64,000 nt of DNA from Manduca sexta. Taxonomy: Eukaryota; Arthropoda; Insecta; Lepidoptera; Sphingidae. The DNA is taken from contig NC_051121.1 of NCBI RefSeq assembly GCF_014839805.1, positions 2,711,116 to 2,775,115 on the forward strand, written 5' to 3'. Positions within the stretch are counted from its first letter, which is position 1. Each line of letters opens with the position of its first letter. The notes beneath the pieces are model-generated. The model did not search any database. It saw nothing but the letters and a program-made list of their open reading frames with translations, and was not told the origin of the DNA. Shown piece after piece: positions 1 through 64,000 of the stretch. The position numbers and the translations under genes were made by a program.

Positions 1-1154
1 TTTCTATTTTTAACATTTCATATCTTATGCTGAGGCAATTGTCGTAACACTTTCCGTCGTCTAATACCTTCTACGACTCTCTGTGAGCCTGGTAGCGTGT
101 GCTTACAAGCGTGACTAATACAATCCGAAACTATTTCTAATATATCCGTTGAAAAAGGTTGAAGAAATTTTAACTCACGCATGAGTCGTCACAAGCTAGG
201 AATATTTCTTTACAAGAGACACATGTACATAACTAGTGAAATATATATTAAAATTATCTTAGGCAAAATATATAATTTGCGAGTGAAAGAAACAAACCAC
301 TAATTAAGTTAATGACTGATCAAAATATTTATGTTACGGTCCCAAACATTAGTCAGAAATTATTACACGTTCGACTAGACCTGCTCGGAATATATTGTGA
401 TAGGTCTGTTGTATTTTAAACGTAATGACACAGCGAGGTCAACGACCATATAAATAATATTCGAAAATAAAACCTATAATTCAACAGCTATATATATTCT
501 CCTTGGTGCAATTTTTGAAACAAAGGGAGTATTTACGAAGCATTAAATAGCCATTGCCATAATAAAATTATTTTCTTCGTCTGCAAAATGAATGCGTAGA
601 TTTTTATTGTCATATTTACGTTAGTCAAGCATATCTTAAATCAAAATACACACAACGTATTGTGCCACAATATATATCGAATATCTTTATTTCGTGATAT
701 ATTGTGTAGAAGACAATCCTAGTGAGTACTCAGACGAGCGTTTTTGGATTTCAAACCGTAAAAGTTTGATATTAAATCATAAATTTTATCAAACGATAAC
801 CACAAATTGTGCCCTCACCTTTGCCCTTAAAAAATAATTTATTTGCAAATCAAAGGATCAATTCCAAAGGTCAAACGATTCTTTGAAAATTACAAGTATT
901 AAATCTGGTTTCCGAGTAGACACAGATGCCCAAGTCGCGATATCTTCATATAATAACTGTATTAGTATCTGTCTAAATGTCAAAGGAGCTGGAATTTCGA
1001 CGAGTATGTCCAATAATATTGACACTAACACGTAAAGTAACATTGTTTAATATTTTCAAGGTGACAGATGAAGGACATTTTTATCATAATTTAAAGCTTT
1101 AAGAGGAATGAATTTTTTTTTTTCTGATTCATAAAAACACAAACGAGTTTTAGA
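1..1154. other. Unique AT-rich non-coding stretch
   Basis: No recognisable gene. Open frames are short and without domain motifs. It contains one minus-strand TACCAGG-N4-CA site near its left end. I see no repeat family that I can name. Confidence 0.5.
82..94 (-). promoter_or_regulatory. TACCAGG-N4-CA motif site 1
   Basis: Minus-strand reading is TACCAGGctcaCA followed by GAGAG. It is one of 18 exact TACCAGG heptamers in the window; 17 keep CA after four free bases. A role as a protein-binding site is inferred from recurrence only. Confidence 0.5.
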
Positions 1155-1237
1155 GGATGTTTCATGCCCGATATGGAGCTAGGCCGCTATCATATTGTCC
1201 GCTATCATATCGCGGGATGGAAATAAACTCGGGGAAC
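1155..1237 (+). mobile_element. SINE body fragment (tRNA-derived family)
   Basis: The stretch resembles the middle of the complete SINE at 30.4 kb: GCCCGATATGG, then a CTATCATAT segment, a GGGATGGAA segment and a final ACTCGG. The tRNA-like head is missing. A 12-bp piece, CGCTATCATAT plus flank, is present twice in tandem, so the copy is rearranged as well as truncated. Confidence 0.6.
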
Positions 1238-1239
1238 TA

Positions 1240-1300
1240 TCATCACCATCATCAGCCTACAGCTGTCCACTGCTGAACATAGGCCTCCCCTAAAGCGCGC
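1240..1300 (-). mobile_element. RTE-clade LINE, ORF2 C-terminal end and 3' tail
   Basis: Read on the minus strand, GAGGCCTATGTTCAGCAG... translates as EAYVQQWTAVG and a stop, followed by an ATG/GTG-rich simple tail. This is the characteristic last segment of ORF2 in lepidopteran RTE-type LINEs, whose 3' end is a short ATGATG-like repeat. Only this end is present. It lies in the opposite orientation to the RTE coding fragment immediately to its right, so the two are not one collinear remnant. Confidence 0.75.
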
Positions 1301-1317
1301 GACGCTGTTCGGTATAG

Positions 1318-1420
1318 TATGAGGTTATCCGTGAGAGAACCAAAGTAACGGACATAGCTCGGAGAATAAACAAGCTGAAGTGGCAGAGGGCTGGCCATAT
1401 CTGTCGTAGGACCGGGGAAC
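1318..1420 (+). pseudogene. RTE-clade LINE, ORF2 internal fragment
   Basis: The plus strand translates as YEVIRERTKVTDIARRI followed by NKLKWQRAGHICRRTG, without a stop. The pattern (I)RERTKVTDIARRI-x2-LKWQ-x-AGH is the region downstream of the reverse transcriptase core in RTE-type ORF2 proteins of insects. It is about 34 codons with no start and no catalytic part, so it is a dead fragment. It adjoins an inverted RTE 3' end, implying rearrangement or two insertions. Confidence 0.75.
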
Positions 1421-3159
1421 CATAGTATTCAGTAATAATAACTAGAGTATTTGTGCTTTTACTTACCTTACAAAATTTTAGGTATAGAGAGTGAAGTTAT
1501 GGAAAATATTTCATTTAGGTGTAAAATTTGATAGCAAATCGAGTAGTCCTTATTTAAAGCTGAATGTTGCAATCATTATAAAAGTTTTGTCTGTCGCAAT
1601 TCTAAAATGATACGAGTGACCTGGCAGTACAAATGTCTATGTATGCAATCGGTATGTCGAGAAGCGCCGGCCAATAAACGAGGTTCATGTTATGTTTCGT
1701 ACATCTATGAAATCTCTTAACTCTTAAATACCTACGCAATCTTCAAAATACGTGTGGAATTCTTAGAAACATCTAATGGCCCATAATTTCTCACGAGTTC
1801 CAACTAATTCTCATACCAAAGCTGGAATCAAAGGCTGTGTACAAATTGGCTGTGTAAGTAGTACCCCCTTAAACGCTCATCAATTAACTGCCAACCACAT
1901 TCCGGCATTCGTCACTCCATCTGAAGAGTTCACGGCGCCTAAACTTCGATCATAAACCAATTTACATCCCGACGCGAGTATAATGAGGTGTTCTGCGTCG
2001 CTCGGGAGCCGCTGTAAACCTCATTCAAACTAATCAACAGCACTCCACTTTTCACGGCCTCGCGCACTTTGGAAACTTTTCGTCCGCACAAAGAGCCCGT
2101 CTATTTAACTGGCGCACTTCTGAGGAACTACCGACCGCGCCGACAACGGCAATATTACATGTGTCGTCCGCGGGACATACCCACTCACCCAACAAGTCAT
2201 TTATTACTCCACAATTCATTTTGAGCTCAGCAAAATAACGTGGTCCGTTAATCTTATAAAGTTTTTAAGCTATTATGATTAGACGCGTAATGAAACTGCC
2301 TTCAGCGCGGCGATGTGCCGGCGCCGCCGGTGGTGGTGCGCGAGTCCGCTCGCGTGCCGACTGGGGAACGACGTTTAATTAAATTAAAATACGCCGGTGG
2401 CAACATTTGCCTAAAATGTTCGGCGGAAGTTTTCATCCGTTTGGTGGCGGCGAAATTTGTATCGTCTTGTGAAGTAGGGCCGAAGAGAAAAGGGAGGGGG
2501 GAAGTATGTCGTTATAAATACCGAAACAAGGTCGCAGCGAAATTTATACGCGCGCATGTTAAATTACACAACTTGCACGGGATTCAGCGGAAAATTGAGA
2601 ATATTAGCCGCGGCTGAGGTTTCAAACGTTATTTAACGCGGAGACGAAATTTGGAGGTACCTACTTGTAGGAAATTACCAAGGAGATATCATGCCATTTG
2701 CTTTTCGTAAGAAATTATTAGTTTCTTTGTCCGCTTCAATAATTTTGATTAATACTATTTTTCTACACGACAGGACTGACTCGAATCAACTTGTATTATA
2801 TTCACTTTATAATGAATATTATATTTGTGTAACATAAAGTCGCATTCCAAAGCGTAATCTAGCCCTGAAGAACGCGTGGGCAAACCAGAATGTTAATTAA
2901 ATATTCCATTTCAGAACCTTTGAGTAATAAACCGGTCGCCGGGCTTAATTAATGCATAGAAAAACTTATATTACAGAGGACACGAGGATAAAGTCATACT
3001 CGTCACGAGTGGACGTAAAAAACCGTCGTTAAGTTAAATCTAGGCGACTTACAATAGTATCGACTGCGACTCGACGAGCTACACCGGGCAAATATCTTTT
3101 GAAGATTAATCATTCGAAAATTACTAGTTCGGATGTTAATTTCAAACAACGTATGTATA
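1421..3159. other. Non-coding stretch with a GC-richer island
   Basis: From about 1900 to 2620 the composition rises and CG dinucleotides are common. A 100-codon open frame lies at 2315-2617, but it begins with GTG, has no recognisable domain and probably reflects the lack of AT-rich stops. No gene is supported. An AAG|GTAAGT string occurs on the minus strand at 1466/1467 without a good pyrimidine tract. Confidence 0.45.
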
Positions 3160-4408
3160 TCTATACTTACTATTATATAAAGCTAAAGAGTTTGTTTGTT
3201 TGTTTGAACGCGCTAATCTCAGGAACTACCGGTCCAAACTGAAAAATTATTTTTGCGTTGGATAGTCCTTTGTTCGTGGAGTGCTATAGGCTATATATCA
3301 TCACGCTATACCCAATAGGAGCGGAGCAGTAATGGCTAATCTCAGGAACTACCGGTCCAAACTGAAAAATTATTTTTGCGTTGGATAGTCCTTTGTTCGT
3401 GGAGTGCTATAGGCTATATATCATCACGCTATACCCAATAGGAGCGGAGCAGTAATGGCTAATCTCAGGAACTACCGATCCAAACTGAAAAAATATTTTT
3501 GCGTTGGATAGCCTTTTGTTCGTGGAGTGCTATAGGCTATATATCATCACGCTATACCCAATAGGAGCGGAGCAGTAATGGCTAATCTCAGGAACTACCG
3601 ATCCAAACTGAAAAAATATTTTTGCGTCGGATAGCCCTTTGTTCGTGGAGTGCTATAGGCTATATATCATCACGCTATACCTAATAGGAACGGAGCAGTA
3701 ATGGCTAATCTCAGGAACTACCGATCCAAACTGAAAAATTCTTTTTGCGTTGGAAAGCCCTTTGTTCGTGGAGTGCTATAGGCTATATATCATCACGCTA
3801 TACCCAATAGGAGCGGAGCAGTAATGGCTAATCTCAGGAACTACCGATCCAAACTGAAAAAATATTTTTGCGTTGAATAGCCCTTTGTTCTTGGAGTGCT
3901 ATAGGCTATATATCATCACGCTATACCTAATAGGAGCGGAGCAGTAATGGCTAATCTCAGGAAGTATCGATTCGAAAATAAAAAATCTTTTTATGTTGTA
4001 TAGCCCTTTGTTTGTGGAGTGCTCTAAGTTATATATCATCACGCTATGACCAATAGGAGCGGAGCAGTAATGAAACATGTTGCAAAAATGGGGACAATTT
4101 ATTAGTTTTGAGAGCTTCCGTTGCGTGCGCTGCATAAACGGTTAAAGTTATGCAACAATGATGTATGACGGGATTAATCCTCTTAAAAAGTTCTAAAAAA
4201 TATATTATAAAACATAGTCCCCCGCTGCATCTGTCTGCCTGAACGTGTTAAACTCAAAAACTACCCAACGTATTAAGATGAAATTTGGTATGGAGACAGT
4301 TTGAGACCCTGGGAAGAACATAGGCTCCCGGGAAACTACTACTTTTATAACGGAAATATTTAGCCTGAAAAACTTTAAAACGCTGGCGGAGCCGCGGGCA
4401 AAAGCTAG
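3160..4408 (+). mobile_element. Non-autonomous Helitron (Lep1-type)
   Basis: The element begins TCTATACTTACTATTATA and ends AAAAGCTAG, inserted between a host A and T: the TC start, CTAG end and A^T target expected of Helitrons. A GC-rich hairpin-capable block (GCGGAGCCGC) lies just inside the 3' end. The GCGGAGCCGCGGGCAAAAGC ending and the 5' sequence are those of the Lep1 group common in butterflies and moths. There is no coding capacity. At about 1.25 kb it is enlarged by the seven-unit 123-bp array that fills most of its 5' half. Confidence 0.85.
3212..4072 (+). repeat. Seven-unit 123-bp tandem array inside the Helitron
   Basis: Units start at 3212, 3335, 3458, 3581, 3704, 3827 and 3950, each beginning GCTAATCTCAGGAA and ending GGAGCAGTAATG. 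Spacing is exactly 123 bp throughout. Units 1-6 differ by only a few substitutions (for example CCGGTCC versus CCGATCC, and ATAGTCC versus ATAGCCC); unit 7 is clearly diverged. The array has amplified part of the Helitron's own 5' region. Confidence 0.95.
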
Positions 4409-4572
4409 TAGTTTATATTTGTGAAAGAAAATTTTAAATCGGTCCAGTAGTTAGTTCCAGAGATTAGCCCCTATAAACCTAATAATTATTATAATCAGCT
4501 AGTTGACTAATTTGGATTACACAAAATAAAGTTAATTTCGTGGTAAACATTATTATAGAAATGACACGGCGA

Positions 4573-4585
4573 TACCAGGAGCGCA
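4573..4585 (+). promoter_or_regulatory. TACCAGG-N4-CA motif site 2
   Basis: TACCAGGagcgCA followed by TGGCC. It lies in unique sequence shortly right of the Helitron, with no similarity to the flanks of the other sites. Confidence 0.5.
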
Positions 4586-5704: not shown

Positions 5705-5717
5705 TACCAGGAGAGCA
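5705..5717 (+). promoter_or_regulatory. TACCAGG-N4-CA motif site 3
   Basis: TACCAGGagagCA followed by GAAAAAC. It sits at the right edge of a GC-rich patch (5670-5704). Confidence 0.5.
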
Positions 5718-7389: not shown

Positions 7390-7402
7390 TACCAGGACAA
7401 CA
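7390..7402 (+). promoter_or_regulatory. TACCAGG-N4-CA motif site 4
   Basis: TACCAGGacaaCA followed by GAACACA, within a moderately GC-rich patch. It closely resembles sites 8 and 14 (acaaCAGA, gcaaCAGA, acatCAGA). Confidence 0.5.
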
Positions 7403-9910: not shown

Positions 9911-9923
9911 TGATGCCCTGGTA
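9911..9923 (-). promoter_or_regulatory. TACCAGG-N4-CA motif site 5
   Basis: Minus-strand reading is TACCAGGgcatCA followed by TGAATAC. Confidence 0.5.
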
Positions 9924-11300: not shown

Positions 11301-11313
11301 TGAATGCCTGGTG
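11301..11313 (-). promoter_or_regulatory. Variant motif site CACCAGG-N4-CA
   Basis: Minus-strand reading is CACCAGGcattCA followed by TGTG. The first base differs from the consensus but the CA block is kept, so it may be a degenerate member of the same site class. Confidence 0.3.
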
Positions 11314-12158: not shown

Positions 12159-12231
12159 GGGGGCGTAGCTCAGATGGTAGAGCGCTCGCTTAGCATGCGA
12201 GAGGTACCGGGATCGATACCCGGCGCCTCCA
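12159..12231 (+). tRNA. tRNA-Ala (anticodon AGC)
   Basis: This 73-nt sequence folds as a standard cloverleaf. The 5' GGGGGCG pairs with the 3' CGCCTCC (one G-T pair), with A as discriminator base. The D arm is GCTC..GAGC, the anticodon stem is CTCGC/GCGAG with loop TTAGCAT (AGC at 12192-12194), and the T arm is CCGGG/CCCGG with loop ATCGATA. Box A (TAGCTCAGATGG) and box B (GGATCGATACC) are intact, no intron is present, and a T-run at about 12235 can end RNA polymerase III transcription. It delivers alanine to GCU/GCC codons. It is not a SINE head: sequence identity to SINEs stops at the tRNA and no SINE body follows. It is probably functional. Confidence 0.97.
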
Positions 12232-12867: not shown

Positions 12868-12880
12868 TGACGTCCTGGTA
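12868..12880 (-). promoter_or_regulatory. TACCAGG-N4-CA motif site 7
   Basis: Minus-strand reading is TACCAGGacgtCA followed by TGGCAAC. It overlaps a TGACGTC string on the plus strand. Confidence 0.5.
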
Positions 12881-13702: not shown

Positions 13703-13715
13703 TACCAGGGCAACA
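13703..13715 (+). promoter_or_regulatory. TACCAGG-N4-CA motif site 8
   Basis: TACCAGGgcaaCA followed by GAGATGAC, within a GC-rich patch. Confidence 0.5.
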
Positions 13716-16190: not shown

Positions 16191-16270
16191 GTAATGAGCG
16201 GCTCGTTAACGTGTACCAGGGCGGCAGCAGTCAGTTAGCGGTGAATGATTAACACGCGACGTGACGCGAG
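16191..16270 (+). promoter_or_regulatory. Duplicated non-coding element, copy 1
   Basis: An 80-bp block aligning without gaps to 17000-17079 at 64 of 80 positions. The shared core runs from GTAATGAG through GTGTACCAGGGCGGCA to ATTAAC and ACGTGACG. It includes motif site 9 and several TAAT or TTAA homeodomain-like words. The differences are dominated by transitions and the spacing is unchanged. No open frame is shared. An enhancer-like or structural role is inferred; it might instead be an old tandem duplication without function. Confidence 0.6.
16214..16226 (+). promoter_or_regulatory. TACCAGG-N4-CA motif site 9
   Basis: TACCAGGgcggCA followed by GCAGTC, at the centre of duplicated element copy 1. 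The first 14 bases are invariant between the two copies. Confidence 0.55.
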
Positions 16271-16451
16271 CCGAACGCCGCGTTTGTCCGACACGAGATT
16301 TTACCTGATGTATTTGAGCTGTATGGCATGAGGAATCATTCAACCACACGTTTAGATTCTGAATTCGTATAATTATTGATGTATATTTGCTGCCATGATT
16401 TAGGCTACACGACATTTCGAAAACAGAATAAATAAAAATTAGAAGTTAAGT

Positions 16452-16650: not shown

Positions 16651-16999
16651 ACCGTTGGTTAAACCTTTAGAGATAAAATAGTACTGCATTTTTTTAGAAA
16701 GTAACTGGTTTACAGGTATTGCATAAATCACCACTCTTATATACTCGCGCTACCGAATAAATCATGAGGAGAGCATTCTGGAGAAGCAGTAGGGATTGCA
16801 AGAAGAGGAAAGTTCGTAGAACCTCCAGCATTTCCACAGGCCCTTACGGAAGGCACCAAAGCTGTTGCTTAAACACGTTAGTGTATTCTGCGCTACAGTG
16901 GAACTATTGGCACTTTCTAAATAACAAAAACAGCAGAAACGCCGTATAATTGCCAAAAAAAAAAATCTATCTCGAAAACTTTCAAAGCGAGACAGGCCG
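16651..16999. other. Non-coding spacer between SINE and duplicated element copy 2
   Basis: Two antiparallel open frames of about 61 and 64 codons (16762-16956) have no recognisable domain and overlap almost completely, so at most one could be real. I see no support for either. Confidence 0.4.
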
Positions 17000-17079
17000 T
17001 AATGAGTGGCTCATTATCGTGTACCAGGGCGGCAACGGTTAGTTGGAGGTAAATAATTAACTCTGTACGTGACGAGAAC
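17000..17079 (+). promoter_or_regulatory. Duplicated non-coding element, copy 2
   Basis: Gap-free partner of 16191-16270, in direct orientation 809 bp downstream. The stretch CGTGTACCAGGGCGGCA is unchanged between copies, whereas the surrounding bases show R/R and Y/Y exchanges. It carries motif site 10. Confidence 0.6.
17023..17035 (+). promoter_or_regulatory. TACCAGG-N4-CA motif site 10
   Basis: TACCAGGgcggCA followed by ACGGTT, at the centre of duplicated element copy 2. Confidence 0.55.
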
Positions 17080-17768
17080 AAGACGTCGCGGTCGACCGGC
17101 CCCCCTAACTACAGCTGGTTGATTAATGTTATAAGATTCGGAGTTACTCGATCGATTAAGACTAAAATTGTTGTACTTGAGCTTAAACCATACTCTTTTA
17201 TGTTGATATGGGAATTGTTCCTAGTAACATGTATTGTATGACTTTGGAGCCTTAGAACAGAAGGTGATTACTTCAAAAATTTATTATAATTATTATATAT
17301 TTTTATGCAAATTAATATACATTTATAATACTGTTAATTCGTCCGCATATCGTATAAAAACTGCAAAATAAATTTATTTCTAATTTTTCTTTATTATACT
17401 GATAAGTTCAATTAAAGCACAAGAATTGTGAGAAGAGCTCATTAAAAAAAAATATTATGAATGAAGTGGTATAGCTAGTACGTACTTCAAACAAAGTAAT
17501 GACGAATAAACGATAGCTCAGTAAAGCTAGTAAACGATTCATGTAAATAATATTACAAACAAAAACTAAGCATACAGTCACGTGAATTAGCAAGGTCAAC
17601 GTGCTTAACTGGAAATTACAAAACCAAATCAAATTGAACAAATCCATCCATCACTGTCATCGCACGTAAATAAATAAATAAAATATACATTGCCCGTTTC
17701 CTGCAATAAACACACAAATATTATTTGAAAACGGCCGTGTCATAAAGCAATAACAAACGGTGCCTTGA

Positions 17769-17781
17769 TACCAGGACAAAA
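17769..17781 (+). promoter_or_regulatory. TACCAGG motif site 11 (AA in place of CA)
   Basis: TACCAGGacaaAA followed by GAAACAC. This is the only exact heptamer of 18 that lacks the C of the CA block; otherwise it resembles site 4 (acaaCAGAACAC). Confidence 0.4.
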
Positions 17782-17936: not shown

Positions 17937-17949
17937 TGTGTTCCTGGTA
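17937..17949 (-). promoter_or_regulatory. TACCAGG-N4-CA motif site 12
   Basis: Minus-strand reading is TACCAGGaacaCA followed by TGAACTA. It lies 156 bp from site 11 and in opposite orientation, one of the two closest pairs other than sites 16 and 17. Confidence 0.5.
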
Positions 17950-21439: not shown

Positions 21440-22002
21440 ATTCAGTCAATATTCGTTCCGAAAATACGCGCTCTCGAATAAATTAGCGAATTAAATAAGA
21501 ATAATTAGTGTTTAAGAATAAAAATAGTTGTATTCGAAAAACCAAAGTGCAAAACTTACGTGTAAGTGTTATCCAAAGTCACCGATTGATAATATCGAAG
21601 AAATCGAAGGCATAAACAGTGGACTAACATTTTTGGTAAACAGTGCAATTTTGGACTAAAAGTGCAAAAACATAATTGTAGGTGTATACAATAAACTTAT
21701 AAATATAAAAAAATAAATAATAATAACTAAAAAATAACTAACTGTGGCTCACGTAATAATACTCTAAACCTATATATTATCATACTCTTTGCTCTAAAGT
21801 AAAAATATTTTCGATGTAAACAATCATTCACCAAAACTAGCAAAAAAATTCAACTCATTGGTCTCCACAGATCACATTAATTAAAATTTACTGCAATAGT
21901 TTTAATAGATAATACTCACTGACGCCATCTACACCTTTTACGAGCTTAATCAATAACGTTGCTGTAGTCGTGAATAATTTACTTTCACCCACTTCCTACA
22001 AG

Positions 22003-23145
22003 ATGGCGCCTTCGAGCAATAATTGTTCCGGCTGCTTGAAAACAATCGGAAGTAAACATTATTTAAAATGTTATTTATGCCGTCAATTGTTTGATCTATC
22101 TTGTGCTAATATAACTGTTAAAGAATACAACACAAAGATGACCCCAGAGCATAAGAAAAAGTGGACATGCACAAAGTGTAATTGTAAACTACCAAACGTT
22201 GACAACTCGAACACTCCACTTCATACGGAAAGAAAAGATGATACAGTTGGTCGACATAAACAGGGCAATGAGGGCAATATTGCTCTTAGTGACAATAGCA
22301 GCATAGTGGACGTTAGCGGCATAAATTCAGCAGATAATCCGGATAGCAATGTAACAATCCGCAAGAAACACTCTACTCAGAATGTAAACCAAATCCAAAG
22401 TGGGCAATCTTTGAACGAATACGCTTATCCCGAAAAATCATTGATAGACAATATACAAATTAACGTTCAAGAAGAACTTCAACTAGCTTTAAATGAGCGC
22501 CTGCCATTATTAATTAGCAAACTCGTAGCTGAACAAGTTGCATTAGTGATGAAAAATGTCATCAATAAGTTAGGCGACCGAATGTCAGTTTTAGAAAATA
22601 AGCTTAGGCTAATAGAAACACACCAAAACTCAAAACAAATTGGTGTAGCACAACATAATACGAATAATGAGAGTAACCAATGTCAACTTCAAACCCAATC
22701 TACAACACCAAACAACCGCGATGAGCACAAGGAAACGAGAGAATACTGCATCACCGAGCCTGATACCATTATACAAAAGAGTGGCTGGGTTAATGAGCCA
22801 AAGTCAAGCAAATATCCAAAGGCGGTAATAAGGGGAACAGCTGCACCTGGTGTTACACAACTCGAGGCTGCTGAGCGCTGGCGATACATACATCTATACT
22901 ACGTGAAAATTGGCACTTCTAAAGATCAAATTGTCGTGCATCTTAAATCCATCTGTAATAACGTCGCCTGTACGGTTGAGGAACTCAAGGCGAGGGGTAA
23001 TTATGCCTCATTCAAATTAGGTGTTCCTGCCAAACTCGCTGATGAAGTTATGGATCCGAAATGGTGGCCCGAAGATGTATGCATTAAGCTATGGCGGCAG
23101 AACTTTCGAAACAATTTTTTTCGGCAGCAAGAGGTATCCCAGTAA
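22003..23145 (+). CDS. LINE ORF1 protein with PHD-type zinc finger
   Basis: A 380-residue protein. I chose the ATG at 22003 (context AAGATGG) because the frame opens 11 codons earlier with GTG and no ATG. Residues 8-59 form a PHD-like finger: C8-x2-C11, C23-x2-C26, C34, C56-x2-C59. The usual histidine five residues after C26 is aspartate here (D31). Residues about 60-145 are polar and low-complexity. Residues about 150-208 are heptad-rich (ELQLALNERLPLL.., MSVLENKLRLIE), a likely coiled coil for multimerisation. The C-terminal segment from about 290 (WRYIHLYYVKIGT to CIKLWRQNF) is the conserved nucleic-acid-binding-like end typical of this ORF1 type. The role is packaging the element's RNA. 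It is intact. Its last 35 codons overlap the ORF2 frame. Confidence 0.85.
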   Translation: MAPSSNNCSGCLKTIGSKHYLKCYLCRQLFDLSCANITVKEYNTKMTPEHKKKWTCTKCNCKLPNVDNSNTPLHTERKDDTVGRHKQGNEGNIALSDNSSIVDVSGINSADNPDSNVTIRKKHSTQNVNQIQSGQSLNEYAYPEKSLIDNIQINVQEELQLALNERLPLLISKLVAEQVALVMKNVINKLGDRMSVLENKLRLIETHQNSKQIGVAQHNTNNESNQCQLQTQSTTPNNRDEHKETREYCITEPDTIIQKSGWVNEPKSSKYPKAVIRGTAAPGVTQLEAAERWRYIHLYYVKIGTSKDQIVVHLKSICNNVACTVEELKARGNYASFKLGVPAKLADEVMDPKWWPEDVCIKLWRQNFRNNFFRQQEVSQ

Positions 23146-24223
23146 TTTACCAGACATCATCAACAGGCATTCAGTGTCAAATACATTAGACCTTTACTAT
23201 CAAAATGCCAGGGGACTACGCACTAAGTTCAATACATTCTACCAAGGAATATCGACATCAGCGGCCGACTTAGTCGCTATTACTGAGACTGGTTTGAATG
23301 GGTCCGTACACGACGGGGAATTGGTACCGGATGGATATGTCATACTTCGATGCGATCGTGCAGACGGCCGCAAGCATGGAGGTGTGCTGTTAGCCTGTAA
23401 ACCGGACCGCACCTTGGAGATACGCCGTGTCTCCATGCCATATAGCGTCAACCTGGATAATCATGTATTTGAAATAGTGAGTGCAACAGTACATCGTAAG
23501 GAAAACTTTTTATTTTTATGTATAGTCGTATATATACCGCCAGGTGCTATAGAAACAGAGTATATGTGCATGTTTCATATGTTAGAACAGTTGTGTTCTG
23601 AGTATGATAGGGTTGTCCTAGTCGCTGATCTTAATATGTATTCTGCTAATCGAGACATACAATGTTACTACGAATACTTCGTCACTTTTTGTGGATTTCG
23701 TCAGTGTAACAAAATTTATAATTGTAATAACCGCACACTGAATGTAGTATTGACCACGTTTTCAAGTGAGGAAATAGAGGTAATAGAAGCAAGCGAGTGC
23801 TTAACTTGCATTGATCCGCAACATCCACCCCTCTATATAACCCTTACAAGGCTACGTAAGTCCGCCTTATTGGCAGAACCTACGTTTCAACCATCTCCCT
23901 TTAACCTCTACCCTAAATGGAATTTTGCTAAGGCCGATTTTTATCTGTTATATAGGTCTATCTCGAAGACCGATTGGAGTAAGCTATATGAAACAAGCAG
24001 TGCCAAGGAAGCGTACGATATTTTCTACGATATTTTCTATAGGTCACTGGATAATACAACACCTAGGAAAAATACCAAATCAGTGTATTCTCGGTATCAA
24101 TACCCAGAGTGGTATACTTCTGAACTTATAGGCTACATAAAACAAAAGCTTTCTGGCACAAATCATATAAAATTAGTAGATCGCATGGTGATTATGAGAA
24201 ATTTTCACATTATCGCGCCCTAG
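23042..24223 (+). pseudogene. LINE ORF2, endonuclease half (frameshifted)
   Basis: The plus-2 frame relative to ORF1 is open from 23021 with GTG; the first ATGs are 23042 and 23075, both still inside ORF1. How ORF2 is started (overlap or re-initiation) is unclear. Endonuclease landmarks: QNARGLRTK (about 23199), ITETGLNG (about 23278), DGRKHGGVLLA (about 23357), VVYIPPG (about 23526), VADLNMYS where GDFN is usual (about 23620), and IDPQHPPLY (about 23810) at the position of the catalytic SDH motif. The protein would nick target DNA to prime reverse transcription. The frame runs out at 24223, but homology to the family already shifts to the other frame near 24135-24148, in an A-rich run. The last about 25 codons are therefore out-of-frame noise. 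Confidence 0.8.
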
Positions 24224-26070
24224 TTAAGCGTAACATTTCCATGGTGTATAAAAATTATCAAAGTCGTATTGAGATGCAATTGAATAAAGACCCAAAGTCA
24301 TTTTGGGCTTTCATAGCAAGCAAACGTTCAAAACGAAGTAAACCAAGAATCATGAAAAATGGTTTGTGCCTATCAGAAAATGATTGTGCTCAGGAGTTCG
24401 CAGACTATTTTAGCTCTGTTTATGGGCACGACGAGCCTTTGTTGGACGCAGAGGCTGCCGCGCTTGGGGTTCCCGAGCGAGGTGCGCGTGTACACGTAGG
24501 GCAATTCTCGCCTAAAGACGTTCGCGCTGCACTTGCGCGCCTTAAGCCAAAGCGTTCGGTGGGACCAGACGGAATTTCCCCCTACGTTGTAAAAGACTGC
24601 AGAATGTCGCTGGTTGACCCTCTTTGTCACTTATTCAACCTCTGTCTTAAAGAGCGTATATACCCGGATGGTTGGAAAATAACCAGAGTGACCCCGGTTC
24701 CTAAAGGTACTCCTAGTTCGGACCTAAGTGGATATAGACCTGTAGCGGTATTATCTACATTCGCTAAAGTGTTCGAATCGGCATTATCTGCATGCATAAC
24801 TCCACAGGTGAGCGCGCATCTCAGTGATGCACAGCACGGATTTCGAGTTGGTCGCAGCACAAATTCTAACCTCATGTGCTTAATGAACCACGCGTCGCCA
24901 GTGCTCGATTCCATAGAAGGTGCACAGTTAGACATCGCCTATTTTGACTTTCAAAAGGCTTTTGATAGCGTAAACAACGACATTCTTCTATCTAAACTTG
25001 CAATGATTGGCTTTACCCCAGATCTACTGCAGTTTTTCGCAAGTTATTTAAGGAGCCGTATGCAATATGTGGAATATGGTGGTTGCATCTCACGCTCATA
25101 CCGTACTCGATCGGGTGTTAGTCAGGGAAGCAACCTTGGCCCATTAGAATTTATCATAATGATAAACGACCTACCGGATGTGATAAAAAACGCGGGTTGC
25201 TTACTCTTTGCTGACGACCTTAAACTTTTTCTGCGTATCAATGACAAGAGTGATTGTGGCCGTTTACAGAAAGATATTGATTTGGTGGCAGAATGGAGTC
25301 AAAAGAACAGGCTGTTTTTTAATGTCACCAAATGCAATGTTATGTCTTGTTCGCGTGCGACCTTGCCTTTGCACTACCAGTATCAGATGGACGGGACACC
25401 CATACCTCGTGTAACATCTGTTAAAGACCTAGGTGTAAGGATCACTAAAGATTTAATCTTTCGAGAGCACATTTTACAGGTGTGCTCTACAGCATATAGG
25501 AACTTGGGCTTTATAATGCGAGAAAGCAGGGATTTTAAGAATTTAGCAGCTGTGAAGGGCTTATATAACACGTTGGTCAGGAGCCAACTGGAGACAAGTG
25601 CTATTATCTGGAACCCCCATGAGGTTAAATATAGCCTCATGGTAGAAAAGATACAAAACAAATTCACCCGTTACCTGTATATGAAACAGTACGGAGTCTA
25701 TCCTTTTTACCCGCTTATGTATCCGTCCCTATTTGTCTTAGGTATGGTCGGCTACTACAAGTTAGAAGTTAGGCGTAACGTAGCGCTAGCCAAATATGTA
25801 TTTGAGGTTTTCCGAGGTACACTAAATAATCCATCAGTGTTGGCTTCATTGCGTCTGATTGTCCCGAACCCAAGGTTGCGAATCAATGTAAGAGAGAGGC
25901 TGCTCGAAGTCCCGTCGACTCGAACTAAGACTGCTCAATTCGCTCCAGTGCTAAGAGCCATAAACATAATTAATGAAGTTGGGCGGAACATAGATATTTT
26001 TAATTGTACACTGGCGGAATTCATAAGGGTAACTATAGAAACTCTAACCAATAATGTATCGACCATATGA
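24124..26070 (+). pseudogene. LINE ORF2, reverse transcriptase half
   Basis: Continuation of ORF2 in another frame, open from 24124; the first ATG is at 24241, but family-like sequence (FWHKSYKISRS, then DYEKFSHYRALVKRN) precedes it. Reverse transcriptase blocks appear in order: GPDGISPYVVKDC (about 24563), GYRPVAVLSTFAKVFE (about 24730), HGFRVGRSTN (about 24837), FDFQKAFDSVNND with the first catalytic Asp at 24964, SGVSQGSNLGP (about 25111), and FADDLKLF with the catalytic Asp pair at 25213-25218. NVTKCNVMS and VKDLGVRITKD follow. The C-terminal about 200 residues are the thumb-like and variable region; there is no RNase H. No further stops or shifts are present. Apart from the single upstream lesion the catalytic parts look complete. 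Confidence 0.85.
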
Positions 26071-27477: not shown

Positions 27478-27490
27478 TACCAGGCACTCA
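27478..27490 (+). promoter_or_regulatory. TACCAGG-N4-CA motif site 13
   Basis: TACCAGGcactCA followed by TAAATCAAAAG; its right flank resembles sites 15, 16, 17 and 19 (CATAAA). Confidence 0.5.
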
Positions 27491-28255: not shown

Positions 28256-28268
28256 TACCAGGACATCA
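28256..28268 (+). promoter_or_regulatory. TACCAGG-N4-CA motif site 14
   Basis: TACCAGGacatCA followed by GAGCGACG, inside a GC-richer island. Confidence 0.5.
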
Positions 28269-31385: not shown

Positions 31386-31398
31386 TACCAGGATAACA
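31386..31398 (+). promoter_or_regulatory. TACCAGG-N4-CA motif site 15
   Basis: TACCAGGataaCA followed by TAAAACAGC. With sites 17 and 19 it shares an extended form TACCAGGATAnCATAAAA. Confidence 0.55.
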
Positions 31399-33089: not shown

Positions 33090-33102
33090 TGCGAGCCTGG
33101 TA
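33090..33102 (-). promoter_or_regulatory. TACCAGG-N4-CA motif site 16
   Basis: Minus-strand reading is TACCAGGctcgCA followed by TAAACAATCG. It faces away from site 17, 383 bp to the right. Confidence 0.5.
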
Positions 33103-33484: not shown

Positions 33485-33497
33485 TACCAGGATACCA
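33485..33497 (+). promoter_or_regulatory. TACCAGG-N4-CA motif site 17
   Basis: TACCAGGatacCA followed by TAAAATAACC. Confidence 0.55.
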
Positions 33498-34026: not shown

Positions 34027-35946
34027 TAAAAAATAATTTTAACAAAAAATTAAACCGCCTTCAAAAACCACTCAAAACCAAAAAATAATTTCACATACAA
34101 GTATATATTGGATACCAATTTTGGAGTCGGTGCCTAATTAAAATTGCTAGTTAGCTATATTTGTTGCATAGTCCATCTATGAGCTAAATTTCTTTCAAAT
34201 CAAAGAGTAGGTTTGCGTGAACTACAACATACACAGTGAAAGGTGTAATACCAAGCACATGTATGGTGTTTCATCTTTTTATTTCCTCTTTTTTCGAGGC
34301 AGGGGGTGTAATACACCCACATTTGACCAGCTATATGTAACAGGGGAAGAATTTAGGTAGTGTACAATTCACAAATTTAAATATTTCCTTAATAGCTTCC
34401 ATTTGCTGTGCTGCGGCGATGTGTTTATCTCCGGTGACGATCTGACTTGCTGACTTTGTACGCTGGCAACACATTGTTTTCGTATATTCGTTAATGTATT
34501 TATCTAGCTTAACCAGCAATTTTAATTAGGCACCGACTCCAAAATTGGTATCCAATATATACTTGTATGTGAAATTATTTTTTGGTTTTGAGTGGTTTTG
34601 AAGGCGGTTTAATTTTTTGTTAAAATTATTTTTATTTTTTGCTTTTTCGTGTTAGTAAAAAATAGACCGTCTCAATGGCATAATTGTGTTTCGCTCACGA
34701 TACGACTATCGCGCTGAGGAGTTACACCTCTGAGTACCACTGAAAAGGGGAAAAGTTGTGATGCTATATATATGTATGTAAGAAGTAGATTCAAGTAAAC
34801 CTAACGCAAAAACACAACTGATATTATTTGGCTCACAGTACAACTATCGCGCTGTGGTGTTACACTTCTGCCTACCCCTGAAAAGGGGAAAAGGTGTGAT
34901 GCTATATATATGTATGTATATAAGAAGTAGAGTCAACTAAACCCAACGCAAAAACACAACTAATGTGTTTCGCTCGCAGTACGACTATCGCGCTGAAATG
35001 TTACACCTTTGCCTACCCCTGAAAAGGGGAAAAGGTGTGATGCTATATATATGTATGTAAGAAGTAGATTCAAGCAAACCTAACGCAAAAACACAACTGA
35101 TATATTTGGCTCACAGTACAACTATCGAACTGTGGTGTAACACCTCTGCCTTCCCCTGAAAAGGGTAAAAGGTGTGATGCTACATATAAGTATGTATGTA
35201 AAAAGTGGAGTCAACTAAACCCAACGCAAGAACACAACTAATGTGTTTCGCACGCAGCACGACTATCGCGATGAAATTATACGCCTCTGCCTACCCCTGA
35301 CACGGGGAAAAGGTGTGATGCTATATATATTTATGTAAGAAGTAGATTCGAGGAAACCTAACGCAAAAACACAACTGATATATTTGGCTCACAGTACAAC
35401 TAGCGCGCTGTGGTGTAACAGCTCTGCCTACCCCTGAAAAGGGGAAAAGGTGTGATGCTATATACATATATGTATGTATGTAAGAAGTAGAGTCAATAAA
35501 ACCCAATCCAAAAACACAACTGATATGTTTCACACACAGTACGACTATCGCGATGAAATGTTACGCCTCTGCCTACCCCTGACACGGGGAAAAGATGTTA
35601 CGCTATATGTATAAGTATGTGAGAAGTACAGTCAACCAAACTCAATGCAAAAACATAACTAAATACGTCACAGGAAAGCTAAATTCGCGATTTCGTTTTC
35701 TTGGACGACATAAATATTCTAGTTTTTTAATTTTAAAACCAAACTACCGAAGCGATCTTGAAAAAAAATTTATGGGACCAATCTGGAGAGAAATTCTTTC
35801 GAATAAAAAAAGAATTTTCCAAATCGGTTCAGAAATGAGCGAGTTCTGAGGTAACAAACATAGAAAAAAAAAAAAAAAAAATAAAAAAAAAAAATTCACG
35901 TCGAATTAATAACCTCCTCCTTTTTTTTGAAGTCGGTTAAAAATAG
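34027..35946 (+). mobile_element. Composite inverted-arm element with seven-unit array, copy 2
   Basis: Same module order as 8070-9266: inverted arms of about 130 bp (34027-34156 and 34504-34636) with a homologous spacer, then the tandem array, then the 3' module ending CCTCC, T-run, GAAGTCGGTTAA. The size difference from copy 1 (about 1.9 versus 1.2 kb) is almost entirely due to array length. An A-rich run at 35862-35893 interrupts the 3' module. No coding capacity. Confidence 0.85.
34688..35660 (+). repeat. Seven-unit alternating tandem array
   Basis: Units of about 137-145 bp start near 34688, 34825, 34965, 35103, 35243, 35381 and 35526. Two types alternate. Odd units read CGACTATCGCG and mostly continue TGAAAT, with AGTAGATTC..AAACCTAAC in their right part. 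Even units read CAACTATCG..CTGTGGTGT with GGAGTCAA or AGAGTCAA then AAACCCAA. Each has the CTCTGCCTACCCCTG..GGGGAAAAGGTGTGATG core seen at the 3' end of the tRNA-derived SINE. The true repeat is thus a two-unit block of about 277 bp. Confidence 0.9.
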
Positions 35947-42858: not shown

Positions 42859-42901
42859 TCGTAATATTTGTATATTTGACTTGATTTCAAATATAGAGTA
42901 G

Positions 42902-47790: not shown

Positions 47791-50700
47791 GCATTAAAAA
47801 AAATAGTGAAAAAAGTAATATAAGATCTGTAACATTATAATAAAAAAAAGTAACATTTTCTTTCGCTCTGTTCAAAATACTAAAACTTATACCAGGGTCA
47901 CAGAACAAAGTAACAGGCGTTCACTAACCCAATAATAAGTCCATCGCTTCAAACCAGTGACGCAGTAAGGCCCACCCATGACATAAAAGGGCAGTCTGGC
48001 AGCGTGACTTATTTGTATGTAGGTCAACTATATGTTTGACAGAGCAATTAATTTGACAAGTAGTTCCAGTCAAGCTATTCCATTTCTTTTACTCCTTATA
48101 GGCTACAACTAATAATACGATATTTCTGATTGTTTACCTAAAAGTACACTTTGAATGCAAAATATTATTGTACAAAGTGGTAAATAACCTACATTGCTTT
48201 GTAATAACACGCGTTCGAATCAATAATTAAATGAACTATGTTTAATAGCGAACAATCCTTCATCGCTAGATCATTATTTTCCATGCGAACTCGTCAACCC
48301 CAATTTTGGTTGACCCCAAATTCCCGCATATATCAAGCCAAGTCACATTCAAATTTCCCTTATATGACTGTATCAAATGAATGGACGTACAGAAAAGATC
48401 AAAATCGATCAGACACTCATTAGGTTCATTCATTAACGGGGCGGGTTCACTATGAGTGGCCCACGGCTGTCGGGGAGGGGGGATGGGATAAAGAGATGAG
48501 TTAATTAAAGGGCGTACACAACGCTCGTTTCGGCGCGTTGGTTGAACCTGAGACGAGATAGCGTCTTCCATGGAGGTCGAGGTCACGCGATTTTAAATAA
48601 GATAATAACGATGAATGAGGCTACAAGTTATGTACATAAAAGTAAAAAATAATATTACTAACGAACTAGTAACCTTTTTGCTATCAAGACGTTTGAGTCG
48701 CTCAGATAATTCTTAAATATGTTCATATGCAGTAGTAATTCAAATAAAACATGTACGCATTTATCGAAGTGAATATTACACTTATGTGTTTTTCTCTTTC
48801 TTTTAAATAGTAGGAGCAGGCAGGTGCACTCCGTCCTCTCTACACTACCCTAATGTAAGAATTCAGAATACCCGTGGCATTAATTCCGCTTATATACCAA
48901 GTGTACAAAGTGTAAATAAATAAATATTTAAGTATAAAGTATGTTATGTATGTAATAACAATAGAAACAATCGTTCCTCGTTTTCGAAACATATTATTAA
49001 TATCAGAAGTTTGTAATATTAATAATTATCTTCAAAGGCGAAACTTTATCTTGATTGTAATTATAATACTTTGTTATAACTAAAACATTTAATATAACTC
49101 TGTTTTGAATTATTTAACATTTAGTTTAAAGTTTTAGCTACTCTCTCAAACAAAACAAATGTTCTACAATTTAAACGCTATTTTCCGACGACGTGGCTAT
49201 AATTTTCCATTAGTTACTCGATGAAACTTTGTTATTATATTAGTTTGGATGATTAAAATATTATGTCCGTTTTACCCTCCTGTCACTGCCATGGCGATAG
49301 CTCGGTTTAACCGGTTTTGTCTTCACAGTTCCAACTAGATATTAATAAATACCTTCGTCGTTAGTATAAACACCTTACCTTATCGTTTTATTTATATTTA
49401 TTCATCTATCAAGTTTTTAACTGGTAAAGTTTAGCTCGTAAAACCAGCATGATTTATACTTCATAATATACAACTCTACATCCAACTCAGTCTTTGTATA
49501 ACTACAAATAACAAATGCGAGCTGACAATCAAACTTACAACAAAATTACACACAAAGAAACCAAACCTCGTGTTTATAAAGTGGGATTCATCATTCACAG
49601 TCTCCGACGATACAATTATTATGGCCATAAAGAACAGCAAAGTTTTCCCATTACAGTGCGCTCTTCCCACTCGCGCCGCAGATCCGCCATTACTCAGCAA
49701 ATATTAACGTCCAAGACAGTAACCCGACACGTAGTCTCAAAAACCCTATATAATGAATGTCGCTAACTGAAAAGCGTTCTAAACCAAAAATATTTAGAAA
49801 CGAATATTATTCAACTAATTATGGCTAGAGATATTTAAAATTTATACTATTTAAAAGGAATACGCTTGTTCGTATGTGGTAAAGATGTAATGATCAAGAT
49901 ACTTGTTTTATGCTAGTAAAATATACTAGTATCTGATGATAGACACAACTAAAGACCACAATGTCTGAGGAAAGCAGGGCGTATGGCCTCTCAGAACTTA
50001 AATGGGTATTCCGAATGTGGACTTTAGACATTCGAAAAATTTACAACTGTATGACATTATAACAGCATTTTCATAACACAGGGTCATCCCTTCGATCTAG
50101 CGAAACCATTCATGCTTGGCTCTACCAGATAATTGTCTTTTCCTTTTGTTTCAGCCTTAAGACTGTAGTATGTAACAAAATAAATAATAATTATTTTTCG
50201 CAATTTTTAAGTTAGACTACTCTTACTATAAGCGGCTATTATTTTAAAGTGGCTCCTCTATGAAAACTTGAATCATAACATTATTGTTTATCATAATCAA
50301 TCTTCTTTTAATCCTCTCCACGGGTTCACGACTGCTTGACATTGTGCTAATGACTTCTAATCGTTGGTGCCTTGATTGCCGTCTACAATCTCTCTAATTA
50401 CTGAGACGTTAAGGTTCGTTTTAGTGTGCAGTGGTGTTTCTTGTGTTTGGCATTGGCACATCGTCGCCTGTCGGACGAAAGTTGACGCTCAGTGACAGTC
50501 ATCCGCGTCACGAGCGATGATAAGGTTGCCATTCTCCAAAGTTATAAAATGTTCGTACAATATTTCATCGCAACATCACGATTAAGCCCTAGATTTTATC
50601 ATCCGTTCAAGCAAATAAAATAGGTTTTTCCATTCGTAATAAATTTTTTTTACGTATTCTAACAAATTGTACAACAAACTATTCGCTCATGTATGAAATA

Positions 50701-51700: not shown

Positions 51701-51705
51701 GGAGC

Positions 51706-56091: not shown

Positions 56092-56104
56092 CCCCCCCCC
56101 CCCC
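56092..56104 (+). repeat. C13 homopolymer
   Basis: Thirteen consecutive C, followed by a C-rich block with CTGCTCCCC. It is the only other such run and on the opposite strand sense from the G13 at 51706. Confidence 0.85.
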
Positions 56105-59197: not shown

Positions 59198-59205
59198 TTA
59201 GCTAG

Positions 59206-59375: not shown

Positions 59376-59383
59376 TTAGCTAG

Positions 59384-60878: not shown

Positions 60879-60906
60879 ACTTACCTGCGAAAAGAGACAT
60901 TAAATT
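60879..60906 (-). promoter_or_regulatory. Candidate recursive splice site B
   Basis: The minus strand reads AATTTAATGTCTCTTTTCGCAG joined directly to GTAAGTG. The junction lies between 60885 and 60884. The acceptor side has a pyrimidine tract (TCTCTTTTC) preceded by a TTTAAT branch-like word, and the donor is a perfect GTAAGT. It is on the same strand as site A, 46.45 kb upstream in the direction of inferred transcription. It could alternatively be a real short 3' exon boundary, but no exon is recognised on either side. Confidence 0.55.
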
Positions 60907-60910
60907 ACAT

Positions 60911-62619
60911 ATTTGTAGCGAGGGCATTAAAATTATAAATGGTTATTAATAATAGGGTAAGTATGAATAATATTTTTTACTCAATGATAAGCCTTTACAA
61001 TATGTGCCTTTATTAACTTGTTTTAAGTATTTTGCATAAAGAATGGCAAAATAATCATTAGTTAAAACAATGTGACATTTACGAATAAAGATTTACCATA
61101 ACAATAAACATAAAAAAATATATACATCAGTTCCACGCTATGATGCCTTCTCGCTAAAACATTGTACACAACACTTTTAAAGACAAAGAATTTTCAGTCT
61201 TAAACTCACGACTCAGCACAAATATTCGCTTGAGTGTCGATTCGTATTCAGGCATCGAACCCTTGTTTCACGGAGGATTCAAAACCCACTGTGCTATGAA
61301 GATTCTCCGTAATCTTATAGTTTATATAGAACTAATTACTAAATGCAAACTTCGGCGCTCGCTATCCTCAGTTTGTAGAGACGAGTTTGCATAAACTTAA
61401 CTTGGTAATAAATCAGAAATCAAAAAAATCCTGTACGTTAAATAAAGCTTTGAGTTTAGTGTATCTTATTATCACATTCAGAAATTTCTCTACCTTGCCC
61501 TACACTATGAGCAAAAAAACAACCAATTTGTAATTCAGGTATGAATTTTAATGATACTCAATGAAACATAAAAGTATGCCCGCTCGTTTGCGTGTGAGCT
61601 TCACACGTGAGTACACAAAAATTTACTTCACATAGGACTATAAACCACAACGGTCGTCCTAGCATCAGACTGCACTTATCAAATACAGTCCATATCTAAT
61701 TAAGTCCCGTAATCGAATTACACTAGATATAATACCTTCTAATTCCAGGTGCACTCCGATGTAATATTACATTTCATCAAATAACACACGCATACACCAT
61801 ACAGTGGTCATTAAATTACATTAAATTTAAACTGAATATGTAAGTAGCACAAATTTTCGCTCACATTTATTATTAATTCATATTAATTAATTCTAAATCG
61901 GTTTAGTTGTAATGCGTTAATCAAGCGGTTTACTCGCGGGAGCCGCGCGGGCTGGACGGACCACAATCATTTATTATTTATTGAACACTGAAAATGATTA
62001 CACGTATGAATTCAAATATTATTTAAATACGCGTAATATGGTCTCATAGAGGAACAATGTCGACGATTCTAAGATTTCCAACAGAAATCGGGTATGCAAA
62101 TGTATGCATTTAATAATAAAGGAAATCATGAGAAAAAATAGAAATGCATTCCATAATATTATAAAAAATTTGTAAACTGTAACAACCTGGACTGGGCTCT
62201 AAGAAATGTGCATATTCAACAATATCACGATGCAAACCATGTCTTATAATAAGATAAATACAAATCTTAATGTATATATCAATATCATATCATAATCTTA
62301 TTAGAGCTAATGCAGAAGCTTGGGACGTAAAGCACATTATGCTACAGCGATAAGCACTCGACTCCGGACGAGATCGGATGCGGCGAGGTGAGACCGCGCA
62401 ATAACAACTTTACGAGTAGACACCGCTAGGTTCACCATTTAAAATAAAAACAACGGACAAGGTCTATAACAGATCTTGACAAGTGGTAAAAATTCCAGAC
62501 AAAATATAAATTCGTTATACTCGTTTGCATATTGAAAATACGTTAAAATACGTTTGCAACTGAAAACGGATTGATTTGTTTTTTAGTTTGGGTTATAATG
62601 TTTATACAGTACATACATG
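60911..62619. other. Unique AT-rich stretch
   Basis: No gene or named repeat recognised. A short GC-richer patch lies at 61920-61970. Confidence 0.4.
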
Positions 62620-62660
62620 CATAGTACGCCTCACGCCTCTATCCAATAGGGGTAGGCAAT
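62620..62660 (-). mobile_element. SINE 3' tail fragment
   Basis: The minus strand reads TATTGCCTACCCCTATTGGA, then TAGAGGCGTGAGGCG. This corresponds to the GCCTACCCCTTCGGGG, AAGGCGTGATG end of the tRNA-derived SINE. Only the tail remains. Confidence 0.6.
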
Positions 62661-62852
62661 ATAATGTTTATGTTAGGTATAATGAGCCGAAAAATGGCAG
62701 ACTACGATCATGGAAATAAGCTGTCTCTAAAAAAAATTAATAATCCGGAAATAATTTTTAATGCGAGTAGAGTCGCAAAGTAAAAGCTAATTTGAAAGAT
62801 TAAGGAAACAAATATTGTTTGTATTTTATGTTTAACTATTATAAGACATACT

Positions 62853-63000
62853 AGTGGCGTAAAGTGAAATTTTGCGACATTAGGGTACTTAATATGCATG
62901 AATGCGCTCTGCAAATCGTTCTGATAATAATTAGATTCTACATAAATTCTACTTAACGGTAAGCCGACAGGATTCGGGTTATATGAACTCTTAAAAACTG
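62853..63000 (+). mobile_element. Diverged hAT-type element
   Basis: Starts AGTGGCGTAAAGTG and ends GGATTCGGGTTATATGAACT, then CTTAAAAACTG, a decayed CTTCGCCACTG. The interior is shared with 42383-42520. The possible target duplication GACATAC/GACGTAC has one mismatch. It overlaps a 132-codon minus-strand open frame that is therefore not a gene. Confidence 0.7.
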
Positions 63001-64000
63001 TGACGTACATTTGCAGCATTCCTTTCAGACGTAAAAGTACAAATCCTAATAAATCCCGAAGCGTGGCAGCCCTATGCACTAGCGAGTTCGCGATGTTTGC
63101 CCGCACCTCATATAAGTTATGGTGTTAAACCCGCGGCCCATTTAACTCGCTCGTATCTCTTCATTGTGGCACATTTAATATTTTAAGACTGGATAATTTT
63201 AAAACTCTTTGAATAATGAAGTTTGTTGAAAAGTTGTGATGAATCTGTCCAGTACAGGAAATATTTTACTCTATTTGCTTTCTTTTTTCCCTCAGCTATT
63301 AAGTCATAGTGTCATCGAATTTATCGTCTTTCGCCAAAATAAAAAATAAACAGCACGATTTCGCCAGATAATAAAATCATTAATAATAATAGAGTGCTTA
63401 ATTCTAATATTAATATTATGAGAACATACGAGAGATTGCTTCATTATATTTATGACTTATGTGACATGTGTTGACGTTGTTTAGATCTCGAAAAGATCGT
63501 TGTAGAATTATCCTGAATAATAAAGCCTTAATAATTACTACGTGAATTCATTATTAAGTATAATTCAAGATTTGACTAAAGTCACAAGATAGAACGTATA
63601 AATATTTACATCCTGATCAAAAAATCTAATTTGACTGATCGACAAATAAACCTTATATGCTATCTCCACGTAATGGTACCAGGATATCATAAAACAAAAG
63701 ACATTTGAACAAGTTCAGTTAGTAATACCAAACAACTCAACTAACTCCATGAAGGCGTTATGATTTCGCGTATTAAGATAAAGACGACTAAGTTTTATCT
63801 TCCTCGATTTCTATAGGAGCGAGTTAAGAAATACATTATGAAAGGAGTTGATCCGACAACGGCGGGGATATAATTTAATTAGCGTGAAACTGTCGAGGGA
63901 AGCTGGCACTGGGGCAGTGTCGCCAGGTGGCCCGCGTTTAAGGGGATGCCCGATCTTTATTGCTACACTCAGCGCGGCGCCTTAAAAGACGATAAAAATC
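63001..64000. other. Unique non-coding right end
   Basis: AT-rich until about 63840, GC-richer from 63850 to the end (GTCGCCAGGTGGCCCGCG, GCGCGGCGCC). It contains motif site 19. No gene is recognised. Confidence 0.4.
63677..63689 (+). promoter_or_regulatory. TACCAGG-N4-CA motif site 19
   Basis: TACCAGGatatCA followed by TAAAACAAAAG, nearly identical to sites 15 and 17 over 18 positions although the wider flanks are unrelated. Confidence 0.55.

Follow-up and report, generated by a model that had tools for sequence, protein, structure and literature searches.

A long directional sequence motif with a TACCAGG-N4-CA core is clustered on some chromosomes of Manduca sexta and may mark chromatin domains

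The question

Why does the heptamer TACCAGG, followed after a gap of four bases by CA, recur throughout a stretch of hornworm DNA in otherwise unrelated surroundings? The stretch in question, referred to as the window, comprises 64,000 nt of the Manduca sexta scaffold C7 (NC_051121.1; C7:2711116-2775115). The repeated sequence is real and extends beyond the 13 bp first noticed. Its form and its uneven distribution over the genome suggest that a protein predicted from the site marks or organises clustered stretches of some chromosomes.

The motif in the window

TACCAGG was detected 18 times in the window (all window counts take both strands), compared to a mean of 3.90 and a maximum of 10 copies in 100 dinucleotide shuffles. 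The original prediction had reckoned with about 5 copies. Counting the first heptamer base as position 0, CA is found at +11 in 17 of the 18 copies, and the resulting 13-mer TACCAGGNNNNCA occurs 17 times against 0.37 expected from the shuffles. The heptamer is never directly followed by T (0/18). If only its last base is changed (TACCAGA, TACCAGC, TACCAGT), none of the 10 copies exhibits CA at +11; for all single-mismatch heptamers taken together the value is 8 of 65, at a background of 5.9%. The CA behind its gap, the excluded T and the near-miss heptamers as a control had all been put forward in the original prediction, and the counts agree with it on each point. Among 2784 heptamers present in at least 12 copies each, TACCAGG exhibits the most concentrated dinucleotide at offsets +7 to +26 (17/18), the runner-up reaching 11/12. 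The sites lie about 4 kb apart on average and are surrounded by small islands of raised GC content (0.427 within 75 bp vs 0.367, standard deviation 0.019) and raised CpG.

The individual sites are given below. Those listed with a score alone were found in the TACCAGG counts, and the scores stem from a position matrix trained partly on these window sites themselves.

82..94, minus strand: site TACCAGGCTCACA, matrix score 28.4
4573..4585, plus strand: site TACCAGGAGCGCA, 21.3
5705..5717, plus strand: site TACCAGGAGAGCA, 26.0
7390..7402, plus strand: site TACCAGGACAACA, 30.3
9911..9923, minus strand: site TACCAGGGCATCA, 24.8
11301..11313, minus strand: additional non-exact site with a CACCAGG core and CA at +11, 15.5; absent from the original prediction
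12868..12880, minus strand: site TACCAGGACGTCA, 21.6
13703..13715, plus strand: site TACCAGGGCAACA, 27.6
16214..16226, plus strand: site TACCAGGGCGGCA, within a 100-bp duplication of 77% identity (first copy, 16191-16290)
17022..17034, plus strand: site TACCAGGGCGGCA again, in the second copy (16999-17098), the 13-mer being fully conserved
17769..17781, plus strand: the only heptamer without CA, with AA at +11; the remaining motif fits, 21.0
17937..17949, minus strand: site TACCAGGAACACA, 24.6
27478..27490, plus strand: site TACCAGGCACTCA, 23.8
28256..28268, plus strand: site TACCAGGACATCA, 28.3
31386..31398, plus strand: site TACCAGGATAACA, 28.0
33090..33102, minus strand: site TACCAGGCTCGCA, 29.9
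33485..33497, plus strand: site TACCAGGATACCA, 25.9
47890..47902, plus strand: site TACCAGGGTCACA, 26.5
63677..63689, plus strand: site TACCAGGATATCA, 30.1

A motif of more than 13 bp that recurs outside the window

For the window alignment 17 sites were used, the site at 17022 being dropped as a duplicate of that at 16214. T is never found at +7, +9, +14, +15 and +16, position +13 is G or T, and a weak purine block follows at about +22 to +26. A matrix of 30 columns, trained on these 17 sites alone, was then applied to DNA outside the window with a cut of 13 bits, and reversed sequence and Markov sequence served as controls. Above this cut we detected 24 matches in 70 kb of C1 (reversed 0, Markov 0.6), 19 in 80 kb of C7 flanks (0 and 1.0), 22 in 20 kb of C23 (0 and 0.2) and 3 in 20 kb of C4 (0 and 0.2). 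In the 24 kb of loci L002-L009, which had been chosen for carrying the 13-mer, there were 5 (1 and 0.4). The window-trained matrix hence recovers the motif on three other scaffolds (C1, C23, C4).

Most non-exact matches above 13 bits read TACTAGG or CACCAGG with CATAA behind; the core therefore has to be written [TC]AC[CT]AGG, with T allowed at +3 and C at 0. The complete consensus reads R-[TC]AC[CT]AGG-V-N-M-N-CA-[TG]-AA plus the weak purine block and covers perhaps 28 bp, about 17 of which are well defined. A set of 31 sites outside the window, from which two near-duplicates were dropped and in which five members of one C1 tandem group were kept (not all 31 are therefore independent), exhibits T at +7 in 0/31, A at +9 in 20/31 and A at +14 in 26/31, with CAT in 25 and CAG in 5. 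The original prediction of a fixed 13-bp bipartite site consequently stands with regard to the fixed spacing, but not with regard to the limit of 13 bp.

Genome-wide excess and clustering

The whole assembly (470,002,661 bp, 4056 contigs) was searched, simple repeats and very common words being skipped in these DNA searches. The bare 13-mer is present in 3015 copies, compared to 1190 for the reversed pattern, which carries the excess proposed in the original prediction to the genome as a whole. The genome as a whole averages 0.41 sites per 64 kb; with 17 sites, the window has about 41 times this density. The difference to the control was far more pronounced for three mutually disjoint extended patterns of 17 bp: GTACCAGGVTANCATAA was detected at 51 places (reversed pattern 0), GTACCAGGVVMNCATAA at 165 (1) and ATACCAGGVNMNCATAA at 93 (5). 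In sum, these are 309 places vs 6, values that imply a highly specific DNA-binding protein, whatever its function.

The lists of places are complete for GTACCAGGVTANCATAA and ATACCAGGVNMNCATAA and comprise 100 of the 165 for GTACCAGGVVMNCATAA (C1 to C17 in part). Among the matches listed for the three patterns, 24 of 25 sites on the 12.8-Mb scaffold C7 fall within 2.207-2.896 Mb, and the window is situated inside this cluster of about 0.7 Mb (C7:2.2-2.9 Mb). The same applies to C4, with 38 of 40 sites within 6.5-10.7 Mb of 10.9 Mb, and to C9 (28 of 30 within 8.5-12.7 Mb); smaller groups are found at C12:1.5-2.2, C8:1.2-1.7 and C1:5.08-5.23 Mb. Altogether, there are clusters on C1, C4, C7, C9, C12 and C23 and weaker ones on C8 and C26, the domains ranging in size from 0.02 to about 4 Mb. 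The two complete lists comprise 122 placed sites; seven domains, which together span 10.0 Mb, account for 59 of these, compared to 2.7 expected there. Since these domains were drawn after the data had been seen, a count of neighbouring sites 1-100 kb apart is the cleaner measure: 41 such gaps exist among the same 122 sites, whereas 2000 uniform trials gave 3.1 on average and at most 10. Many of the remaining sites in these lists are single and scattered.

Two properties follow for the 122 sites. No large chromosome is enriched, which may count against dosage compensation and a mark of the Z chromosome (scaffold lengths are 5.6 Mb for C1, 9.4 for C2, 10.9 for C4, 12.8 for C7 and 16.9 for C23; the numbering seems to rise with length). 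Furthermore, some chromosomes lack a cluster altogether, which bears on the idea of meiotic pairing centres, i.e. that zinc-finger-bound motif arrays on each chromosome pair the homologues as they do in C. elegans. In the worm, a clustered motif is indeed bound by zinc-finger proteins (PMC7140621), and moths are holocentric, too. But domains are not present on every chromosome: the complete lists contain no site on C16, C20 and C25 and one each on C10, C11, C19, C22 and C24. We rejected the candidate accordingly and consider such a role highly improbable.

Two local peculiarities were observed. Five sites start within 155 bp at L010:4516-4686 (C1:5084516-5084686), partly due to tandem duplication. 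Identical site versions lie at low and high coordinates of C27 (96575, 196283 and 18047595), and three are located on contig C3538; these are possibly recent duplications.

Flanking sequences and repeats

The sites might alternatively be relics of a dispersed repeat, or chance. A few pairs do share flanks. In the window this applies to the pair at 16.2 and 17.0 kb, in which the 13-mer is identical at 13/13 and the rest of the 100 bp at 64/87 positions, and on C1 to three pairs, namely the locally duplicated 5214304/5226555 and the diverged tandem copies 5223761/5223884 and 5183019/5183080. Among 48 TACCAGG sites on C7 and C1 compared together with 250 bp of flank, however, similarity was limited to such local duplicates, overlaps of neighbouring sites and short repeat pieces (84 bp, and 35-38 bp, common to C1 and C7 flanks). 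The LINE and both large tandem arrays of the window contain none of its 18 sites. The shuffles, the heptamer survey and the unrelated flanks rule out chance, short repeats and dispersed repeats, and the reversed 17-bp patterns with their 0, 1 and 5 matches point the same way. An origin of this kind is refuted by the present results unless an old repeat has decayed everywhere but at the site, which we regard as extremely improbable. The original prediction had argued that the motif is no transposon relic and that flanks are unrelated except for the pair at 16.2 and 17.0 kb; apart from neighbouring sites with overlapping flanks, both statements proved correct, and the possibility that all sites lie in an unrecognised dispersed repeat found no support in the 48 flanks.

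The LINE of the window (21913-26067) consists of three overlapping frames, two without Pfam matches and then a reverse-transcriptase frame. It is 60% identical to a Parnassius protein, and its nearest named relatives are found in Lepidoptera. A search of viral contigs with this element gave 0 loci and a search of genome contigs 1 locus, QNXQ01000078.1. This contig, filed as an Aquifex metagenome-assembled genome (MAG), carries a LINE-like reverse transcriptase with 36% identity to the moth LINE, possibly a eukaryotic contamination. The tandem arrays are located at 3212-4072 (123-bp unit, 7 copies) and 34685-35660 (137/278-bp unit) and contain over-represented window words such as AGGAGCGG and CCTACCCC, respectively. 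A tRNA-Ala (AGC) was detected at 12159-12231 by ARAGORN and Rfam.

The one-strand array on C23

On C23 we read the pieces 3405001-3415000 and 3420001-3430000, using a matrix without any C23 site and a cut of 12. It gave 22 matches, 21 of them on the minus strand; in either piece the spacing of neighbouring matches is 0.2 to 1.4 kb. The adjoining 10-kb stretches 3395001-3405000 and 3430001-3440000 contain no match above 12, indicating a sharply bounded array of about 20 kb (C23:3.408-3.428 Mb). A gap-free stack of 19 of the 22 sites on the motif exhibits conservation from about -42 to +31, i.e. a longer composite, which includes a block around GCGGGAGGCT upstream of the motif (-29 to -20). This block is absent from the sites of the window alignment. 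Self-comparison of the array showed that the units resemble each other mainly at the composite; in a MAFFT alignment of 16 units, a few rows contain upstream gaps and the upstream register is imperfect. GTAGCG is repeated upstream of the C23 sites, mainly on the minus strand (15 vs 3 in L031, 5 vs 1 in L030), and is possibly the site of a second binding partner.

C. elegans 21U-RNA genes carry an upstream motif. In a similar way, the many hornworm sites might act as promoter elements, each driving a small transcription unit of its own with one short RNA, and both the directional C23 array and the Mb-scale domains of a long directional motif would fit to this. Against it, there is no second fixed downstream signal except T at +31 in 13 of the 19 stacked sites, no RNA structure was predicted in the 16 units, and the window sites lie in GC-rich islands. 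We consider such promoters very unlikely. A structured RNA gene was rejected, as 0 base pairs were predicted in the 16 C23 units and the Rfam gathering cut-offs give only one tRNA in the window.

What may bind the motif

C2H2 finger arrays typically leave such a signature: a long, directional site of fixed layout in which some positions are strong and others weak. The motif exhibits all of these properties. We therefore propose, with a probability of roughly 0.42, that one multi-finger C2H2 protein most probably binds a long directional site whose invariant core is TACCAGG-N4-CA, and that this protein forms chromatin domains. The clusters suggest that it acts over domains and not only on single genes. 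Many molecules would bind along each domain and jointly build a distinct chromatin domain, be it as insulators or boundaries or as loading or stopping points for loop extrusion; the one-strand C23 array might be an especially strong anchor.

Several observations weigh against this proposal. Orientation is mixed in the window (13:5). The 31 outside sites are looser, T occurring at +9 in 6 and at +14, +15 and +16 in 3 each, so that the missing T at +7 is the only side constraint of the window alignment that remains strict. At 10 bits, the held-out matrix gave 25 matches in the C7 flanks but also 11 in the reversed sequence, and weak sites are thus not trustworthy. Finally, a leucine-rich frame just past the last C1 site (L017:7748-8110, C1:5.2277-5.2281 Mb) matches SKP2 in PDB (E 2e-4) and is probably a host-gene exon. 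Host genes near the C1 cluster may mean that some domains serve nearby genes.

This leads to the alternative that the motif is an ordinary transcription-factor site, the domains being regulatory landscapes of a few genes under one factor and the CpG-rich islands enhancers. The raised GC and CpG around the sites, the spacing in the window and the exon beside the C1 cluster are consistent with it, and the exon moves a little weight from an architectural role to enhancers. But the motif is unusually long, the domains on C4 and C9 reach about 4 Mb, and a one-strand array of 20 kb is atypical of enhancers. Moreover, only one of 119 homeobox matches (C9:12.13 Mb) lies inside a domain. We regard enhancers as rather unlikely.

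The long open frames in the domain DNA read are mainly mobile-element-like by eye. In a Pfam scan of 10 frames, 2 were transposase-like, 1 matched retrotransposon gag-protease, 1 was the weak leucine-rich match, and 6 gave none. Two transposase-like frames of 375 aa in the C7 flank (L022:7413-8537 and L024:7042-8166) lie in opposite orientation about 20 kb apart, are identical across the 130 residues compared and recur in part in L013 (C1). L019:445-2343, also in the C7 flank, is a 633-aa retrotransposon-like frame with gag, zinc-knuckle and aspartyl-protease matches. The frame L010:5503-5829 appears transporter-like by eye, without a Pfam match.

Mobile-element frames in the parts of the C7 and C1 domains read would suit a zinc-finger protein that marks piRNA source loci or heterochromatin and, across domains rich in transposons and poor in genes, recruits chromatin or transcription machinery. 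In the fly, a ZAD zinc-finger protein, Kipferl, does so via a simple motif (PMC9531945). The hornworm sites, however, lie outside shared repeats, and their motif is long whereas that of Kipferl is short and G-rich; a function of this kind seems clearly unlikely. The domain-forming C2H2 protein remains our preferred explanation.

Comparison with known systems

The consensus core of CTCF is C[AC]NYAGRKGGC[AG], with GKGGC as 3' half, and the mammalian loci Dxz4 and Firre carry oriented arrays of its sites. The hornworm motif resembles CTCF in its multi-finger logic and in the middle part CAC[CT]AGG, and the C23 locus resembles Dxz4 and Firre in being an oriented array. In contrast to CTCF, the motif lacks the GKGGC half and exhibits N4-CA[TG]AA instead (V-N-M-N-CA after AGG). 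Scanning for the strict core gave no match on C7 (144 kb) and a single one on C1 (70 kb), and canonical CTCF sites were rejected on account of this near absence. The original prediction had noted that ACCAGG recalls the CTCF core and that the N4-CA half does not fit it, and had favoured a multi-finger protein; the misfit is borne out by both results, and the protein is partly supported by the long site with fixed spacing. It is conceivable, if unlikely, that a handful of domains are defined, via dense groups of sites, by a CTCF-like factor of Lepidoptera, which might be a poly-zinc-finger protein that has diverged but has the CACYAGG contact in common, and that the C23 array is a master anchor like Firre or Dxz4. 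If true, holocentric moths would possess a sequence code for their large chromatin domains. A butterfly Hox study made use of the fly CTCF matrix (PMC10945631).

The titles listed in our literature search, which does not extend to subscription papers and bioRxiv, gave no hint of such a motif in Lepidoptera, which is no proof of absence. With HIM-8 and the ZIM proteins of C. elegans the hornworm system has in common a clustered motif in a holocentric animal, bound in the worm by C2H2 proteins; it differs in that the worm motifs are 12 bp long and located near one end of every chromosome (PMC7140621), whereas several hornworm chromosomes lack a cluster. Kipferl and Rhino of Drosophila are a model for sequence-guided chromatin domains in repeat-rich DNA, but the Kipferl motif, GRGGN, is short (PMC9531945).

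In Bombyx, a preprint describes secluded S domains, which are gene-poor, have a median size of 80 kb, cover about 15% of the genome and include Hox (PMC11326380). They are modelled there as localised loop extrusion, and targeted loading of the extruder is proposed. The TACCAGG domains are far rarer than this. A run among the 119 homeobox matches, located on C21 (1.23-2.65 Mb) and regarded as Hox from the run alone, contains 0/51 and 0/93 sites of the two complete lists, and a marker of Hox or of Bombyx S domains was rejected for this reason. The word 'motif' occurs 0 times in the available text of the silkmoth preprint, which thus names no sequence signal of this kind for moth chromatin domains (PMC11326380). 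The hornworm motif is a candidate for such a signal and supplies exact sites, a strongly controlled consensus and a compact oriented array.

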